DNA from: a virus | Strand: one strand, 5' to 3' | IMG/VR virus record: IMGVR_UViG_3300046722_000050 | Span: 1 to 35,849 of that record | Length of the DNA stretch: 35,849 bases | Shown: positions 6,854-19,337 of the stretch, one piece after another | Numbering within the stretch: position 1 is the stretch's first letter | Layout of the letters: every line of letters begins with the position of its first letter | Notes under the pieces: generated by a model | Seen by the model: the letters and a program-made list of their open reading frames with translations, nothing else | Told to the model about the DNA's origin: nothing | The model's database searches: none | Position numbers and translations under genes: made by a program

Positions 6854-7522
6854 CTACCAAGGTCTCAGTGATACCACGGCTGGCGGCAACATGCTGTGCA
6901 TGGGCTGCGCCAGATAGTAGGCGTGCATGTGGCGGCTCACTCGGGTGATCGTGTAGCGGTAGTGACTCCATAGGAGCTTATTGAAGCAGCGAATGTAGTC
7001 GCCATAGCTCACTACAGGCTCGTTGAAAAAGTCGCTGTATAGATGGCGGAACCATCCTATGCGTCTGAGCGCCGTGTCGCTCCAGATGAGATACTTGGGC
7101 GCTTTCGGTCGCTGCATGACCTTAGCTACGGGCCAGTCGCGCTCAAAGAAGCGCACGTTCATGGTAGGGAAGTCGAGCACTACCATGTCTGCATCTACCG
7201 TGCCCATGAGTTCCTTAGCGTCACCTATGCCTACGGTAGCTCGACCATCGAAGGCGCTGTGTAGCTGCCTAACACAGTCGGGGTCTATGTCGTAGATGGT
7301 GTGCGCGCTCGGTCTGAGCGTTTCCTGCACGATGGTAGCGAAGATGCCTACGCCACCGAAATACTCCACGACGCTAAGCCCTTGTGGGAAGTCGCGGATG
7401 ATGTGCATGAAGCAGGCCTCGTTCATCTTCGACGCCTCGCGGTCGATGTGGGCGAAGTGACCGCCAGCGCCACCCTCGACTAAGGGCAGAGGCCAGCGGC
7501 CACCTACAAGTAGCTCCCTCAC
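6854..7522 (-). CDS. Rossmann-fold SAM-dependent methyltransferase-like protein
   Basis: A 222-residue protein starting with GTG in a GTGA overlap with the upstream stop codon. The core has SAM motif I LSVVEYFGGVGIFATIV (about 49-65), then acidic strand-2 end TIYDIDPDCVRQL, GIGDAKELM, and motif-IV-like VDADMVVLDFPTMN. This matches a class I methyltransferase, with DFPT where DNA adenine enzymes have (D/N)PP(Y/F). It lacks the PC dipeptide of cytosine-C5 enzymes and has no target-recognition domain. The substrate is unknown; it might act on DNA, a modified base or a small molecule. The first 30 residues are less ordered, and an internal Met (MNEACFMHII) is an alternative start. Confidence 0.6.
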   Translation of the reverse strand: MRELLVGGRWPLPLVEGGAGGHFAHIDREASKMNEACFMHIIRDFPQGLSVVEYFGGVGIFATIVQETLRPSAHTIYDIDPDCVRQLHSAFDGRATVGIGDAKELMGTVDADMVVLDFPTMNVRFFERDWPVAKVMQRPKAPKYLIWSDTALRRIGWFRHLYSDFFNEPVVSYGDYIRCFNKLLWSHYRYTITRVSRHMHAYYLAQPMHSMLPPAVVSLRPW

Positions 7523-12874: not shown

Positions 12875-12988
12875 TTAGTGCATCCATCCGTGAACCAGAT
12901 GGGCGATCTCAATGATCGTGTGAAGCGTGTGGTGGTGGTGGTGGGCCTTGTGAATGGCCATGTGAGCGAACTTGATTACGTGTTTCAT
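12875..12988 (-). CDS. His-rich 37-residue mini-protein (not in standard ORF size range)
   Basis: ATG AAA CAC to TAA encodes MKHVIKFAHMAIHKAHHHHH and then TLHTIIEIAHLVHGWMH: 12 histidines in 37 residues, with an i/i+4-like spacing that would put them on faces of one or two helices. Its TAA sits directly before the AGGAGACACC of the HNH gene, and AGTAACACG precedes the ATG as it does at the tape-measure gene. A metal-binding or zinc/nickel-loading role is conceivable, but the ribosome site is weak. Confidence 0.45.
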   Translation of the reverse strand: MKHVIKFAHMAIHKAHHHHHTLHTIIEIAHLVHGWMH

Positions 12989-13920
12989 CGTGTTACTAGG
13001 CGGCGACATATCCCGTCGCCATTGGTGTTAACTACCATCGTTAATCGATGGCAGAGATGGTAGCAGCCTTAGGCGCTGTCGCCGTAGCTGCTACCGTGCT
13101 CTGCTATCTGAGCCTCCGCGTCATTCCGCGACTGACATCCTCAGCGATCCGAGTGGGCCTGCCCTTACGCGCTCCCTCCGCACCGTCGTGTGCCTCATTG
13201 GGTTTGCCTGTGAGCTACCTTTCATCCTGAGCGACTACGTGTCGCGACCTACGCTATACACCGCGTGTCGTCCCTCCCAGCGCCGTGTGGCGTTGAGGTT
13301 GTCCGTTAGTGGGCATCCCACTGTGCCGGATAGACTTGGCCCGTTTTATTAGCGTCGCGTAGCGGCGACGAGTGGCTCCCGACCGTTACCGATCGAGTTT
13401 GGTAAAGCGGCAATCACTATAGCCGCGTATGAACTACTCATCTGCACTACAGCGACCCCAACGACACATACGCCACGATTGACTGTCATCGTGGCGCGAT
13501 TCGTCGAGCGGCTGACCCTTGGGCTAACGCCGTTATTCACGGGGCGCTTTTTCAGGTTTGCTTCGGTTTCGTTCATCAGGCCATTACTAAAGCGCCTAAA
13601 CAAACAAAAGAAAACAACTATTTTTGCTGAGGGCAAAATACTTTGTAAAGCGCACGTCCTTAGAAAGTTACGCTATCACGATGGGATTCCATCGGGTTTT
13701 AGATAGGGTGGCGTCACGGACTCCATTCTACGCGGCCATGGTGAAAAGTTGCCTCTCGTTGATTTGCCCCATCGAGTGCCCGATAGAAGTGCCATCGAGG
13801 AGGATCAACCGTGGCCGCAGGCAACTTACGGCACACGCCCATCTGCACTATGAGCCAGCCGTTTGCATAGTGACGATGGACAGGCCGCAGCGCCCATCGT
13901 CGATGAGGCCCGCGCCCGCG
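12989..13920. other. About 0.9 kb without a convincing gene, rich in inverted repeats
   Basis: Minus-strand frames here are short or compositionally unconvincing (a 95-codon frame at 13349-13636 has no ribosome site). The sequence holds many perfect hairpins: GGCGAC/GTCGCC (about 13002-13020), CCATCG/CGATGG (about 13033-13049), GGTAGCAGC/GCTGCTACC (about 13057-13094), AGTGGG/CCCACT (about 13307-13321), CGTCGC/GCGACG (about 13354-13371) and CGCCACGAT/ATCGTGGCG (13471-13496). An A/T-rich patch at about 13590-13650 is the most AT-rich stretch of this region and could hold a promoter for the leftward small-gene operon or a replication or packaging site. Confidence 0.5.
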
Positions 13921-14445
13921 CTATCGGCCTATGGAGTCGGCTATCTGGTCGGCGTTGCGCTCAAGCTCACCAGCGGTCTCATTGGACAGCTCGATGGCCT
14001 TGTAGCGTGCGAGGATGCCCGCTATCAGCGTGCGCCTACTCTGCGTGAAGGATCGTGGCTGAGTGTCGCCGCGAGCCTTATGGCGTCGATCTCGCTCGTC
14101 CTCGGAGCACACGATGTGGAACAACTGAAGCTCGTCGTATGTGACCGACGATAGGAAATTGTGGCGGGTCAGCCTGTCGCCCTCAAAGGCCACCGTCGCC
14201 GTAGCTGGGCGCGTCTTGAGGAATTTGATGGCATCGCCATAGACCGCCATCGAGAGTTTGTCCGTGCCCGCGAAGATTTCATGGTCGTTGTAGAGGCCGA
14301 GCACATAGCGGTCGCGTGTGTAGGCCCGCCCGCGAAGCAGCCCGAATTTGAACTTCATATACTCCAGTCCAAGCCGCCTCAAGATGGAGCGCATGAGCGC
14401 TGTTTTACCTGTCGCTGGCTCGCCGATTATGCCAATTAGCTTCAT
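13921..14445 (-). CDS. P-loop kinase of the putative base-modification cassette
   Basis: A 174-residue P-loop NTPase starting MKLIGIIGEPATGKTALMRS; Walker A is GEPATGKT at residues 8-15. Further acidic and Arg motifs (VAFEGDRLTRHNFL; CSEDERDRRHKARGD as lid) look like a small nucleoside/nucleotide kinase. In thymidine-hypermodifying phages a P-loop kinase (5-hmdU DNA kinase) phosphorylates the hydroxymethyl group before amine addition; I infer the same role from the position directly after the transferase-type gene. It lacks the helical domain fused in the known kinases. Palindrome P3 and a GCCTC-containing hairpin lie just before its start. Confidence 0.65.
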   Translation of the reverse strand: MKLIGIIGEPATGKTALMRSILRRLGLEYMKFKFGLLRGRAYTRDRYVLGLYNDHEIFAGTDKLSMAVYGDAIKFLKTRPATATVAFEGDRLTRHNFLSSVTYDELQLFHIVCSEDERDRRHKARGDTQPRSFTQSRRTLIAGILARYKAIELSNETAGELERNADQIADSIGR

Positions 14446-14506: not shown

Positions 14507-15414
14507 CTTCCATTGTGTGAGTTGGCCTCCTTTAGATGCTCGGGCTTGAAGGTTTCAGCGCGGTATGCCCACAGGACGCTCCAATCTACGCCCTCAGTCA
14601 CGTGTGCCTGTAGGTGCGCTATCTCGTCGTGCTGGCGGTTGATGTAGTAGCCCGCCCATCGTTTGCCTAGGTGGTATTTTTTGTAGGCACACAGGGTAGT
14701 CTCCATGTTCCACATGTTATTCGCTGGGTCGAGCGCCTTGAGGTCGCGCAGGCCCGCGTCCAGCGACACCTGTAGCATCTTCATGTCGGTCTGTTTGATC
14801 TGATGACCGTCCTCATGGTTGCTTAGATCGGGCCTGCCTATCGCCAGCGCTAGTCCGTTGCGGCATGACTGAGCCTCACGCACGTTCATCGTGGGCGGTT
14901 CCATCGGGAAGCCCGTGACCACATGGACAGCCTCGGTGTAAAGCCACAGGCCGAAACGTCCCATCTGAAACCACTGTGAGGCGTCCTTGCTGACTACGTC
15001 ATAGGTGGCGAGCGGGTCGCGTGGCACTTCTCTCGATCGCATCCACATCTCCTGGCTGAGCGGGCGCACCGCGTCCGCGTAGGAGCGTAGCATCTGAACC
15101 CACTGATTGCGGGAGCGCACCCATCGGCGGTCAGTCTGGAACAAGACCTTTTCGCGGTTGAGTTTCCACCATCGCGCCGCCCTATCGAAGTCAACGTTTT
15201 CCCAGTCCGGAAACTCGTTGTAGATGTAGAACGTGGTCGCGCCGCAGTAACACGTTGAGTAGATGTAAGCCAGCCAGTAGCGTTGCTCCGTGTTAAGCTC
15301 GTAGCGTTCGCAGATGTAACGAAGCATTGAGTAGCTAGGGTCAACGTCACCTATGGCCCGACTGTAGGTGTGGTAGTCCACATAGCTCATCTTGTCGCTG
15401 TAACTAGCCCACAT
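14497..15414 (-). CDS. Alpha-glutamyl/putrescinyl-thymine pyrophosphorylase-type protein (amino acid:DNA transferase family)
   Basis: A 305-residue protein. The start MWASYSDKMSYVDYHTYSRA overlaps the end of the amidotransferase gene by 11 bp and follows AGGGACG; an upstream in-frame extension of 34 codons is unlikely. The all-helical, Trp/Tyr-rich pattern PSYSMLRYICERYELNTEQR, YWLAYIYSTCYCGATTFYIY, EFPDWENVDFDRAARWWKLN, DRRWVRSRNQW is what I know from the aGPT-Pplase/ADDT clade, whose members replace the phosphorylated hydroxymethyl of thymine in DNA with an amine or amino acid (putrescine, glutamate, serine or glycine in known phages). Recognised from sequence pattern only. Here the nucleophile is unknown. 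It lies between a kinase and a glutamine amidotransferase. Confidence 0.65.
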   Translation of the reverse strand: MWASYSDKMSYVDYHTYSRAIGDVDPSYSMLRYICERYELNTEQRYWLAYIYSTCYCGATTFYIYNEFPDWENVDFDRAARWWKLNREKVLFQTDRRWVRSRNQWVQMLRSYADAVRPLSQEMWMRSREVPRDPLATYDVVSKDASQWFQMGRFGLWLYTEAVHVVTGFPMEPPTMNVREAQSCRNGLALAIGRPDLSNHEDGHQIKQTDMKMLQVSLDAGLRDLKALDPANNMWNMETTLCAYKKYHLGKRWAGYYINRQHDEIAHLQAHVTEGVDWSVLWAYRAETFKPEHLKEANSHNGSAN

Positions 15415-16042
15415 GGTAGGTCGTCCCTGCTTCGATGGACTTAGGCAGCTTGAAGCCTGAGCGCCTGAATATGTCCTGTGTTGAGCCGATGTAGTGGGCG
15501 CTGGCCTCGCGCACATGGTAGAGCGGGCGCTGGCGATTGCGGAGCGCCAGTAGCTCGCCGTGGTAGAGCATGACGCCCGCGAAGCTAAACGTGCCTAGCC
15601 TAACCCACTGCTCCCAGTCCTCGCCGTCTAACACCTTGCGCACGAAGATTTCTCCATCGTTATCCGTCTCGGGCTTGAAGCCGAACTCCTTGCCCCACTG
15701 CTCCTTAGTGGTCATACGGATGACGCCATTGAACGCCATAGCTACGTCACCTATGACGATGGGCTGGTTAGCGTCATCGTCGTGCCAGTCGCCGCTGGTC
15801 GAGTAACGGCAATGCGCGATGAGGCTTAGATGGCGGCCCACATACTCGAGAGCGAGCGCGGCCAGATACTCTCGCGCCTGCTCGCGAATTAGGAACTTGT
15901 CGCACCCGAGCGCGCCATCCGCATGCACGTGCGCGACTCCGAACGAGTGCAGCCCGCGTATCTTACTCGCATCGAAAAGCGCAAGCAGCCGCGCAGCCGC
16001 TCGCTCGCCGCCCTTGCCTGAGTAACCTATGACCGCGCACAT
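15404..16042 (-). CDS. Stand-alone class II glutamine amidotransferase
   Basis: A 212-residue Ntn-hydrolase-type GATase: Met removal would expose Cys2 of MCAVIGYSGKGG as the nucleophile. Other family marks are HCRYSTSGD (Arg79), ANQP (92-94), FNGVIRM (Asn105-Gly106), TDNDGE (127-131) and LRNRQRPLY. It liberates ammonia from glutamine. Unlike asparagine synthetase or GlmS, no synthetase domain is fused, so the ammonia must go to a partner, most likely a cassette neighbour that aminates a base or activates an amino acid. It overlaps the GNAT gene by 16 bp and the transferase gene by 11 bp. CG-rich palindromic patches inside it (about 15838-15930) resemble the R repeat weakly. Confidence 0.8.
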   Translation of the reverse strand: MCAVIGYSGKGGERAAARLLALFDASKIRGLHSFGVAHVHADGALGCDKFLIREQAREYLAALALEYVGRHLSLIAHCRYSTSGDWHDDDANQPIVIGDVAMAFNGVIRMTTKEQWGKEFGFKPETDNDGEIFVRKVLDGEDWEQWVRLGTFSFAGVMLYHGELLALRNRQRPLYHVREASAHYIGSTQDIFRRSGFKLPKSIEAGTTYHVG

Positions 16043-16665
16043 AAAAGGAAGTCATAATCATGGTCGGGTTGCCAGTTGCGTGCAAGGATTTCATGGTGCA
16101 ATTCTTCACCGCTCATGGCGGTAACACGACTGGTAACACCGCGAGCGCCGATGGGCGTCTTGTCGGTCGGGAACTTAGCCGCCTGATGCGGGAGTGGCGA
16201 GTCGATCTGGATCTCGCCGCCCTCACAGAAGCCCCACACCTGATGCCCTAGCGACCAGTGTAGGCGTAGCCCTAGGTAGCTGCCTGCCTTTGACTTGATG
16301 CGGGCGCAGCCTAGGAACGCACAGTGTTGTAACATGGCCCGCGACAGTTGGAGCGCGTAGCCTTGGCGACGATGGGACGGTGTCGTGTAGGCGAGCGTCC
16401 AGTTGCAGTAGGGTTCCCATATGTTCTTTTTGCGCCGCCCGATGTGGATGGTGCCAAAGCTCAGTGGGCCTTCTGGCGAGTCCAAGGCGAACACAGCCGC
16501 CTTGCGAAACAACTCCACTCCAATGTCGCCTAGGCAGTCATAGCTGTCCTTAGGATAGCCGCCTCTACGCTCGCGTAATGCACGCGCCATCGTCTCGCAC
16601 TCGGATGGGAGCAGGAGCTCGCGGACTCTCGCGTGCTCGATCGAGTTGCATGTGTGCACGCTCAT
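16027..16665 (-). CDS. GNAT-family N-acetyltransferase of the cassette
   Basis: A 212-residue protein; I start it at MSVHTCNSIEHARVREL because a longer frame (GTG) runs through the R3 repeat. GNAT motif A is LAYTTPSHRRQGYALQLSRA with the acetyl-CoA loop RRQGYA (99-104); IKSKAGSYLGLRLHWSLGH is motif B-like. It probably acylates an amine, such as an aminated base made by the neighbours; acetyltransferases also occur in described thymidine-hypermodification clusters. The C-terminus overlaps the amidotransferase start by 16 bp. No ribosome site is seen in front of the ATG. Confidence 0.75.
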   Translation of the reverse strand: MSVHTCNSIEHARVRELLLPSECETMARALRERRGGYPKDSYDCLGDIGVELFRKAAVFALDSPEGPLSFGTIHIGRRKKNIWEPYCNWTLAYTTPSHRRQGYALQLSRAMLQHCAFLGCARIKSKAGSYLGLRLHWSLGHQVWGFCEGGEIQIDSPLPHQAAKFPTDKTPIGARGVTSRVTAMSGEELHHEILARNWQPDHDYDFLLCARS

Positions 16666-16810
16666 GGGCGAGCGCGTCTGTTTCCTAAACGCGAGAGCGC
16701 GTAGAGCGCGAATATCGCGAGCGTGAGTAACGCGGATGCATACGCCCACTCGAATACGCGAGTGACGTGCACGCGAGCGAGTCGCTCGAGCGCGTTAGGA
16801 ATTAGCTCCC
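16629..16810. repeat. CG-rich palindromic repeat R3 at the TET/GNAT junction
   Basis: Two blocks: 16629-16668 (GCTCGATCGAG, GCATGTGTGCACGC, ATGGG), nearly identical to the right end of R1 at 30751-30781, and 16757-16810 (in minus orientation GCTAATTCCTAACGCGCTCG), matching R2 at 8560-8580. The last codons of the dioxygenase gene (Ala-Asn-Ser-stop) and the first codons of the GNAT gene are encoded inside the two blocks. The 129-bp gap between the stop and start codons is thus filled by repeat sequence. Confidence 0.55.
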
Positions 16811-17880
16811 TTGGATACATGGCTCTCGATGGGAGGACGTCTGAGCGCCTTAGCGCGGGCGAGTTCTTCATCGGCGCTGCCACAGCGCTGCATCTTCTCG
16901 CGATAGTAGAACACCAGCGATACCCGCTCAAACATCCCATGGTTGCCTTTCATGGGCGTGTTACCGTGCCACTCATGCACGTCCGCACAGAGGACACAGC
17001 CAGTCCTCATGTCTAACGCCACGCGATACTTAGGGAACACGAAGTAGCAGCCCTCGTAGCGGCCACGCCTGAGGCACGACATGACGCCGAAGCCCTCCTT
17101 CAAGTCGCCCACGTCCTTATGCACCGCCGTCTGGAAGTTGCGGTTGACGGTCACTGTGGTGAAGCAGGTGTCCGCGATGTAGAAGTCGGCGCTGGTGGCG
17201 CGGATTAGATCAGACTGCGCTAGGTAGCGGTCAGGGACTAAGGCCGCGAACTCCCTGTCTATCCGCTGGATGAAGGGCATGACAGCCGCAAAGCGCCTCG
17301 GGTGCGCTAGGTTGTAGGCAGTCAGGCGACAGTAGGGAAAGCGCGGATTCCTATCGAAGAAGCCCACTATGCCGCTGTTGACTAGCTTGGCGACGTTCGT
17401 GTTACTCAGTGTGCCATCGTGTTTGATAGCCTGCGCTCTCGTCGGGCTGACCAGCTTGATGCCTATGCCGCCTCGCTCCTTGGCGATCTTCACTAGCTCC
17501 TCCTCTGAGTTGATCTGCCCTGCCGCGTAGCCACGGTTGCCAGTGGGGTTGGCCGCGTCCTTCCATACAGGGAAGGCCGTTAGGCAGTCGGCCTCCTCTA
17601 TGACGTTCTGGCGAAACCTGCACAGCAACGAGCCATCGGGCTTGTAAATGTCCACGTCATCGGTGTGGAGCGTATCGTAGGCATCCTCGCCAAGTAGATG
17701 ACCAGCAAGAGCGTCGGTCTGCTCGTCGTTGAGCGCGTTGCGTTTCAATCGCACGACCTTGGGCGGTGCCTCAGTCTTGTGGCGATAGTCGAGTTTAAGC
17801 GACGGTGGTAGCTCGGTGCTCCGTGGTATGCTTAGCGTGGCCATTGGTGCGTTTGGTTTGTAGTTGGCTGAATGTAGCAT
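16795..17880 (-). CDS. TET/JBP-type 2-oxoglutarate/Fe(II) dioxygenase
   Basis: A 361-residue protein. The C-terminal part carries the TET/JBP signature: RNFQTAVHKDVGDLKEGFGV (HxD at H254/D256), GRYEGCYFVFPKYRVALDMR, GCVLCADVHEWHGNTP (distal His H302 or H305) and ERVSLVFYYREKM (2-oxoglutarate-binding Arg319). This is close to trypanosome JBP, which hydroxylates the methyl of thymine in DNA, and to TET, which oxidises 5-methylcytosine. The N-terminal about 200 residues include SDLIRATSADFYIADTCF, typical of phage members. The start may be the second Met (MATLSIPR, residue 13). It overlaps the Gp88-like gene by 50-86 bp and ends in repeat R3. I infer it supplies 5-hydroxymethyl-pyrimidine for the kinase/transferase pair downstream. 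Confidence 0.85.
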   Translation of the reverse strand: MLHSANYKPNAPMATLSIPRSTELPPSLKLDYRHKTEAPPKVVRLKRNALNDEQTDALAGHLLGEDAYDTLHTDDVDIYKPDGSLLCRFRQNVIEEADCLTAFPVWKDAANPTGNRGYAAGQINSEEELVKIAKERGGIGIKLVSPTRAQAIKHDGTLSNTNVAKLVNSGIVGFFDRNPRFPYCRLTAYNLAHPRRFAAVMPFIQRIDREFAALVPDRYLAQSDLIRATSADFYIADTCFTTVTVNRNFQTAVHKDVGDLKEGFGVMSCLRRGRYEGCYFVFPKYRVALDMRTGCVLCADVHEWHGNTPMKGNHGMFERVSLVFYYREKMQRCGSADEELARAKALRRPPIESHVSKGANS

Positions 17881-18550
17881 CGCCCTGCTTTTTGCGAAAC
17901 ATCGGGATGCGGTTAGCGACTAAGCCTATGTGCTTGGGCGCGTAGATGGCGAACAGGTCTGAGGCTTCGCGGTTCTCATAGCCGGCAGCGATAGCAGCCT
18001 CCTTAGTCGGGAACACGTCCGCGTGGCGGTCATGTGCGCGATCTACGAGCGCGTCCTCCTTGCCGCCCAGTGAGTATATCCAGTCGAAGTTGGCGGGCGG
18101 GTCAGGCTCGACCAGTCGCTTGAACTTACTGACCTCCTTAGTGTAGGCGTAGAAGGTCGCCCATGGCGAGCGCCTGATGATGCGTAGCCATGCGCTCAGA
18201 TAGGCGTCGCTGAAGAAGTCGCCGCTGTCGTGTATGCGCACGTGTCGCCCACGATAGCGCGGGTCGCGTAGCTCGCACGTCATGCGTGTCTCCCACCATG
18301 GCAGATGATCGAGCACCATGAGCAGGTTGCGCTCATGGGCCGCTCTCACCTCGGGTAGTAGGAAGTTACCGCTCCTCGCATAGCACAGCTGGGCGCACAC
18401 TCCGGCGTTAGGGCAGACATTGAAGTTTCGGCCGTCGCTCAGTCGAAGCGCCCATGCTGGTAGCGTCCAGTTGTAAGCGCCATCGCGCTTGAGCAGGCTA
18501 TTCTGTGTGAGCAGCCACTTGGGCAGTAGCTTTTCCATTGCGCTTACCAT
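17795..18550 (-). CDS. Gp88-like Cys-cluster protein
   Basis: A 251-residue protein (start Met1 or MEKLLPKWLL, residue 5). It has the Cys cluster C46-x5-C52-x3-C56 (NVCPNAGVCAQLCYARSGN), VRIHDSGDFFSDAYLSAWLR (105-124) and FYAYTKEVSKF, then YSLGGKEDALVDRAHDRHAD and IGLVANRI. This is the pattern of a phage family often annotated Gp88 after mycobacteriophage genes; its biochemistry is unknown to me. The Cys triad recalls a metal or Fe-S site, and HDSGDF may be catalytic or metal-binding. Between ParB and the dioxygenase, it is a candidate modification enzyme or specificity factor. The last 35 residues are low complexity and overlap the dioxygenase gene. Confidence 0.65.
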   Translation of the reverse strand: MVSAMEKLLPKWLLTQNSLLKRDGAYNWTLPAWALRLSDGRNFNVCPNAGVCAQLCYARSGNFLLPEVRAAHERNLLMVLDHLPWWETRMTCELRDPRYRGRHVRIHDSGDFFSDAYLSAWLRIIRRSPWATFYAYTKEVSKFKRLVEPDPPANFDWIYSLGGKEDALVDRAHDRHADVFPTKEAAIAAGYENREASDLFAIYAPKHIGLVANRIPMFRKKQGDATFSQLQTKRTNGHAKHTTEHRATTVA

Positions 18551-19337
18551 AGCACTCCGCTACCGCTTTAACGACTGTGTCGGTGATGTTAGTGATCTCC
18601 CAGTCTTCGCCTAGGACGCGCACTTGCTCCATGAACTCGGGCAGAGTCTCCACTGTGAGGAACAGCTGCACCATCCGTATGTGAGCGGGTATGGTCTCGT
18701 CGCCCTCGCCAGCGATAGTCGTCTCTGCATCGGTGTCAGGCGTCATCTTAGTCAGCATGGCCTCTAGCTCCTTAGCTGAGAAGCCAGTGAGCGGTAGCTC
18801 ATAGCCTTGGCCATCCAACTCGGTGAGGATTTCAGATAGCGCTGGCAAATCCCAGTCGCCACCGTGTTTGTTGGCCGCGATCATGGCCGCGTTCTCGGTG
18901 GCCTCGTCCCACTTGACCTCACGATAGACGAAGCGTTCGCCGCGATACAGCACGACGCCCTCCGCGACGGTGCCGCGTGGCGTGGGCTGAGGGAAGCGCC
19001 TGAGTATCTCGACTGGCAGGTTGCCGAGGATCTTCACGCGCTGGTGGCCGCCTACGAGGTGGCCTGTGTTGAGGTTCACGACGAGTCCACTGAGGTCGCC
19101 ATACGCGGCCATAGCTTTCTTCAGCGCCTCCAGTTGTTCGTCAGTGATTTTGCGCGGGTTGCGCGGATTGGCCGAAAACTGCGAAAGCCGTATTTCGGGG
19201 TCTGATTGACGTTTCGGAGGTGTCTCCGCGTTGCGAGGATGCCCTGTAGCACGTTTGTTTGGGGCGTCCGCTACCTTGACCCTACCCGATTTGGCGGACT
19301 CGTTCTCGGGCATCGTCGTTGCTTTTGGTGGTTTCAT
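18498..19337 (-). CDS. ParB/Srx-domain protein of the modification cassette
   Basis: A 279-residue protein. Residues about 46-200 are a ParB-like domain of the type found beside DNA methylases: IRLSQFSANPRNPRKITDEQ, LEALKKAMAAYGDLSGLVVN, GHLVGGHQRVKIL with the box GGHQR (96-100), then KWDEATENAAMIAANKHGGD. ParB/Srx folds bind or hydrolyse nucleotides, so it may be a helper NTPase or site-selection factor in base modification. The ATG is in an ATGA overlap with the tail-fibre gene. The first 45 or so residues are disordered, Lys/Pro/Asn-rich, and are encoded by repeat copy E. The C-terminal part (FLTVETLPEFMEQVRVL) overlaps the Gp88-like gene. Confidence 0.8.
   Translation of the reverse strand: MKPPKATTMPENESAKSGRVKVADAPNKRATGHPRNAETPPKRQSDPEIRLSQFSANPRNPRKITDEQLEALKKAMAAYGDLSGLVVNLNTGHLVGGHQRVKILGNLPVEILRRFPQPTPRGTVAEGVVLYRGERFVYREVKWDEATENAAMIAANKHGGDWDLPALSEILTELDGQGYELPLTGFSAKELEAMLTKMTPDTDAETTIAGEGDETIPAHIRMVQLFLTVETLPEFMEQVRVLGEDWEITNITDTVVKAVAECYGKRNGKATAQVAAHTE
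19191..19322 (-). repeat. Dispersed repeat, copy E, inside the ParB-like gene
   Basis: In minus orientation GACGATGCCCGAGAACGAG at the left, then CAGGGCATCCTCGCAACGCG, then GGAGACACCTCCG and ATCAGACCCCGAAAT at the right. The blocks match copies C and D in order and spacing. It encodes about residues 6-49 of the ParB-like protein. The GGAGACACC in it is the ribosome-site sequence seen before seven other genes, so this part once looked like a spacer plus start region. Confidence 0.65.

Follow-up and report, generated by a model that had tools for sequence, protein, structure and literature searches.

What does a glutaminase that lacks an acceptor domain do beside a DNA-base transferase in a phage genome? 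The 35,849-base virus record IMGVR_UViG_3300046722_000050 (IMG/VR), analysed over its full length and referred to here as the window, carries a minus-strand cassette encoding, in order, a ParB-like protein, a GP88 family protein, a TET/JBP oxygenase, a GNAT-like protein, a class-II glutamine amidotransferase (GATase), an amino acid:DNA transferase (ADDT) and a P-loop kinase, its genes overlapping or tightly spaced (Table 1). Comparison of this cassette with its relatives suggests that uncultured phages in which a GATase adjoins a DNA-base transferase would aminate their DNA with glutamine-derived ammonia and not with a whole amino acid.

Table 1. Features of the base-modification cassette in the window
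Feature	Position	Strand	Remarks
ParB-like protein	18498..19337	-	Steady companion, 5' end of most cassettes
GP88 family protein (PF17338)	17795..18550	-	Rare cassette member
TET/JBP 2-oxoglutarate/Fe(II) oxygenase (PF12851)	16795..17880	-	81.1 bits against a Pfam gathering score of 34.9, passes
GNAT-like acyltransferase, 212 aa	16027..16665	-	Weak family match; close relative in L001 only
GNAT stop/GATase start overlap, 16 bp	16027..16042	-	ATGTGCGCGGTCATAG
Class-II (Ntn) glutamine amidotransferase, glutaminase domain only, 212 aa, nucleophile Cys2	15404..16042	-	ATG start, begins MCAVIGYSG
GATase stop/ADDT start overlap, 11 bp	15404..15414	-	ATGTGGGCTAG, given an ADDT start at MWASY
ADDT (PF18724, amino acid:DNA transferase), 305 aa	14497..15414	-	Model matches PaMx11 PUGT, Z 19.1
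P-loop nucleotide kinase (PF18751), expected base-hydroxymethyl kinase	13921..14445	-	

The GATase gene is overlapped upstream by the GNAT-like gene and downstream by the ADDT gene, by exactly the lengths given in the first-pass annotation of this DNA, and the ADDT start on which the second overlap depends is backed by ADDT relatives. In 44 of 47 related clusters the GATase also overlaps the next gene, when the nearest start is chosen, a choice biased towards the stop; such overlapping starts would fit co-translation. Further GP88-family genes occur at L073:8788-10089 (where one ORF also includes the kinase), L080:1-660 and L083:4130-4804 (L numbers denote surveyed loci). Elsewhere in the window, about 1 kb between an HNH gene and the kinase (12913-13920) has no evident gene on the cassette strand, and positions 6854-7522, away from the cassette, give a weak TRM5/TYW2-type methyltransferase match (E 0.001, below cut-off). 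Several public labels are misleading, as the kinase is placed in a 'terminase small subunit' PHROG, the TET gene also matches a 'queuine tRNA-ribosyltransferase' PHROG, and TET relatives in phage records carry the annotation 'SNF2 DNA repair protein'.

The GATase was first described as a stand-alone protein with a Cys2 nucleophile, and this description holds: the ORF starts with Met-Cys, and no synthetase domain is present in its 212 residues. Its match to Pfam GATase_6 (E 2e-5) falls slightly below the gathering score, while profiles built from its relatives match the glutaminase domains of PurF, GlmS and asparagine synthetase in the PDB, EgtC being absent among these matches. An AlphaFold2 model (pLDDT 96.1) matches PurF and GlmS at Z of about 21 and EgtC at Z 18.7. 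Cys2, Arg79, Asn105-Gly106 and Asp129 are invariant among 46 aligned relatives with identities down to 33%, so that loss of Cys2 in homologues, which the first-pass annotation had named as evidence against its reading, was not encountered. Arg79 (the presumed glutamine-binding arginine), Asn105-Gly106 (the presumed oxyanion pair of PurF/GlmS) and Asp129 align with their PurF counterparts and, together with Cys2, are taken here to be the glutamine-binding and hydrolysing residues, on the strength of this alignment and of general knowledge of the class. Wherever an ATG start could be resolved (95 loci), the protein begins Met-Cys; six further loci read Leu-Cys, likely from a TTG start, and the remaining four are cut. 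Relatives with 33-59% identity occupy the same position in about 100 loci, and since the active-site residues are also invariant the GATase is no chance ORF. Overall, the protein looks like an active glutaminase, as predicted from its sequence and model, without an acceptor domain of its own.

A candidate acceptor is found in the adjacent gene. In known ADDT members an amine replaces the phosphate on 5-phosphomethyl-dU, and an enzyme of this family would thus offer an activated carbon open to attack by ammonia. The window ADDT passes the PF18724 threshold (80.5 bits against a gathering score of 26.2), and its profile matches PDB entries 25qc (E 7e-9) and 8z2m (E 2e-5), the latter being, by its title, PUGT, the 5-phosphomethyl-dU glycinyltransferase of phage PaMx11. 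Its model (pLDDT 95.3) superimposes on 8z2m over 258 residues, the next-best fold matches being 8-oxoguanine DNA glycosylases and related enzymes, with Z of about 9 or less. The window ADDT thus has the modelled fold of a 5-phosphomethyl-dU glycinyltransferase, amino-acid transfer by this clade being putative.

The gene neighbourhoods also link the two proteins. Viral contigs were searched with GATase and ADDT alignments, giving about 100 loci, and neighbours were scored by profiles built from the window genes. Eighty ADDT loci, chosen by similarity to the window protein and reaching down to about 39% ADDT identity, were dereplicated at 90% ADDT identity and, with a Prevotella contig from a genome scan (L115), gave 51 clusters, which represent one broad clade and not all ADDTs because of the way the loci were chosen. 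The GATase adjoins the ADDT in all 51, and nearly every ADDT relative has a GATase next to it, at most a single GNAT gene separating the two. The reverse search, starting from the GATase, placed an ADDT beside it in 22 of 24 loci; of the two exceptions, the L002 contig stops partway through the gene and L029 is an outlier of 25% identity. At L026:8001-8823 both genes are present only as fragments, perhaps through frameshift or decay. A kinase accompanies the pair in 49 of 51 clusters, although not always the same one, as L056-like clusters have a different P-loop kinase in place of the usual one (L056:6288-6755 and 14 related loci), with the TET gene after the ADDT. Adjacency of GATase and ADDT survives these varied gene orders and kinases, as well as changes of C5-group supplier and GNAT, is seen down to 33% GATase identity and extends to the Prevotella contig. 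The absence of a conserved neighbourhood, also put forward earlier as contrary evidence, is the opposite of what was found, and the breadth of these loci and their conserved neighbours rules out a rare or chance arrangement. The constant unit in these sequences is GATase, ADDT and kinase.

Around this unit the presumed source of the C5 group varies. A TET gene is present in 40 of 51 clusters, a radical SAM gene in five and a thymidylate-synthase-like gene in three (two by proximity and one, in L007, by whole-record search), and no cluster of the 51 has two such suppliers. The radical SAM genes (PA0069-like; L011:11532-12782, L028:10837-12189, L100:10068-12170, L103:11109-13298 and L115:10500-11750) are confined to clusters in which neither a TET nor a thymidylate synthase was detected, the L100 ORF also matching a glycosyltransferase family, and may supply the C5 group by another way. 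A DNA C5-methyltransferase (PF00145) was detected in only two of 37 records, some of which may be fragments, and not in the window, a scarcity that favours thymine as the target. For two of the three TET-less members with a thymidylate-synthase-like enzyme a comparison was possible, and these enzymes share 26-41% identity with their counterparts in phages that carry a ViI-type ADDT. These data hint at thymine or 5-hydroxymethyl-U as the substrate, cytosine being still possible given the fragmentary records and possible methylation by the host.

The GNAT was originally seen as the distinctive partner of the GATase, the two forming 'just this pair', and in this respect the survey leads to a different view. 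The window GNAT matches Acetyltransf_1 weakly (E 0.005, 17.5 bits against a gathering score of 20.7) and shows an RRQGYA motif by eye, but a PDB profile search and a small-GNAT profile gave no match. GNATs are present in 31 of 51 clusters and fall into at least five kinds: those between GATase and ADDT mostly belong to a small type scoring above Pfam cut-offs, others are found in L010/L011, L100 and L115, with a weak match in L056, and the type shared by the window and L001 is one more. None was detected in the other 20, including the close relative L006, so that a fixed GATase-GNAT partnership is ruled out, and the pairing is, in the genomes compared, a frequent case and not the core. Amidoligase-like proteins are found in five of 51 clusters. 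At L007:8912-10466, L030:1843-3485 and L123:6795-8242 an amidoligase-like gene precedes one resembling a low-molecular-weight phosphatase, an arrangement that recurs in ADDT clusters both with and without a GATase. With GNATs in 31 and amidoligase-like proteins in five clusters, acylation would be a common but optional last step. The earlier proposal that ammonia is passed to a neighbour and the resulting amine then acylated is still the best reading, in view of the conserved neighbourhood and invariant Cys2, but the constant partner is the ADDT with its kinase, and the GNAT is optional.

ADDT clusters outside the linked set provide a contrast. Ten were read over about 1 to 9 kb beside each ADDT, from ViI-like Aeromonas, Vibrio, Dickeya and Pseudomonas phages, Lysinibacillus, Caulobacter Cr30 and a relative, two actinophages and contig L123. 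Within these stretches no GATase was found, and two of the ten have an FAD oxidoreductase in the gap between ADDT and kinase. An FAD lyase is the known route from glycine to the aminomethyl group, and none of the 51 GATase-linked clusters, window included, matches FAD profiles. Although ten controls are a small sample, this pattern is as expected if GATase-derived ammonia and glycine-plus-lyase were alternative routes to the same amine. On a quick ADDT tree with some very long branches, on which L105 and L111 were assigned thymidylate synthase as supplier on the model of related loci, GATase linkage changes three times (one change being possible), the C5 supplier at least seven times and GNAT presence at least nine times, the GATase-ADDT pair persisting through these replacements. 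The linkage may have a single origin on this tree, and the clusters are therefore not to be counted as independent gains.

From these families, folds, active-site residues and gene orders we infer the target base, the catalytic steps and a contact between GATase and ADDT. The GATase would be one half, the glutaminase, of a DNA:glutamine amidotransferase encoded by two genes. The TET enzyme would convert the C5 methyl group of thymine (or 5mC) to hydroxymethyl, which the P-loop kinase would phosphorylate; the GATase would then hydrolyse glutamine and pass ammonia to the ADDT, where it would displace the phosphate and leave a 5-aminomethyl pyrimidine in DNA, the ADDT thus taking ammonia where PaMx11-type enzymes take glycine. 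Finally, the GNAT would acylate the amine, probably to 5-(acetylaminomethyl)-dU. Kinase activation and glutaminase-derived ammonia would in this way yield the 5-aminomethyl base in one step, much as PurF works, except that donor and acceptor would be two separate proteins, and a synthetase would be unnecessary since the kinase could supply the leaving group. One-step amination by the ADDT is the most economical reading, favoured by the absence of an FAD lyase, which conversion of glycine would require, and by the recurrence of GNATs or amidoligases, since enzymes of either type can acylate an amine; the EgtC fold match and the weak match of the window GNAT count against it. On balance we regard displacement of the phosphate by glutamine-derived ammonia, with possible acylation by the GNAT, as probable, if by no means assured. 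The wider proposition, that a widespread class of phages aminates bases directly with ammonia from glutamine, by a split GATase-ADDT enzyme downstream of three interchangeable C5 suppliers (TET, thymidylate-synthase-like and radical SAM), with TET acting on thymine and not methylcytosine, is advanced more tentatively.

Other roles for the GATase can be envisaged. The ADDT might load the phosphomethyl base with glutamine, or with a different gamma-glutamyl amine, the GATase then clipping the gamma-glutamyl group in the manner of EgtC and leaving the amine on DNA. Stand-alone class-II Ntn enzymes without a synthetase do exist in such a role, as the similarity to EgtC recalls, and ADDT relatives transfer amino acids; yet PurF and GlmS are closer in both fold and sequence, and the ADDT would have to react through glutamine's amide nitrogen, in contrast to PUGT, named a glycinyltransferase. 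We consider this unlikely, although genomics is unable to separate it from direct use of ammonia since the end product is the same.

Quite unlikely, in our estimate, is a scheme in which the ADDT, like its counterparts in known phages, transfers an amino acid, and the ammonia is used afterwards, for instance to convert the carboxylate of the attached residue to an amide, or feeds an amidoligase. Such a division of labour would agree with the location of related phage GATases within amidoligase clusters, with the few amidoligase-like genes found here, and with proposed phage amide ligases containing a glutaminase domain (PMC12783734). However, gene order binds the GATase to the ADDT, no amidoligase was detected nearby in 46 of 51 clusters, window included, and the window cassette showed no other recognisable enzyme for activating a carboxylate. 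A GATase working apart from the cassette, for example on host glutamine or in counter-defence, and merely co-inherited with it, appears very unlikely: linked genes of small phages do move together, and the linkage may trace to one event, but it has outlasted the divergence and rearrangement described above, in the Prevotella contig as elsewhere.

Ammonia transfer to the ADDT, if true, would place a primary amine on DNA bases in one step from a common cell nitrogen donor, replacing the amino-acid-plus-lyase route, would account for an uncharacterised gene in dozens of metagenomic phage lineages while naming its ammonia acceptor, and would provide a compact enzyme set for aminomethyl and acylaminomethyl DNA. 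Whether TETs from these cassettes use thymine would also become testable. No isolated phage with this cassette is found in INPHARED, nor an ADDT relative among PLSDB plasmids, and a GATase as constant ADDT partner was not found in the searchable literature, a mention in key earlier surveys being still possible.

Hypermodification of phage pyrimidines by TET or a hydroxymethylase, a kinase and an ADDT is already known, and amination is among the known steps of phage base modification (PMC12783734). Class-II GATases 24-30% identical to that of the window occur in phages phiEco32, RIO-1 and BroderSalsa, but are longer or fused and paired with amidoligase, ATP-grasp and gamma-glutamylcyclotransferase genes, with no ADDT seen in the stretches read. 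The CmoX/CmoY system of Synechococcus phage S-B43 (PMC12783734) likewise modifies DNA bases, and some CmoY homologues contain a glutamine-hydrolysing domain, but it is an ATP-dependent amide ligase acting on carboxymethylcytosine and has no kinase-ADDT route. Actinophage cassettes, among them the TET-ADDT-kinase cassette of Tonitrus (PMC11955845) and those of Microbacterium phage MO526 and of LilMcDreamy, also group the genes for ParB, TET, ADDT and kinase together. They have no GATase, MO526 (like contig L123) having an FAD oxidoreductase in its stead and LilMcDreamy an Asp/Arg hydroxylase-like protein. Pseudomonas phage PaMx11 trims its attached glycine with an FAD lyase. Its gp46/PUGT (PDB 8z2m, 8z2n) shares the transferase fold, and its 5-aminomethyl-dU pathway shares the expected substrate, a phosphorylated 5-hydroxymethyl pyrimidine in DNA, and the expected aminomethyl product; it differs in attaching glycine, the window cassette having a GATase and no FAD lyase, and the two transferases are 14% identical. 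The chemistry predicted here is reminiscent of PurF, the amidophosphoribosyltransferase, in which a class-II glutaminase domain provides ammonia that displaces a phosphate-type leaving group from carbon; PurF carries its own synthase domain in the same chain, whereas the acceptor here would be the product of a separate gene, with an unrelated fold.
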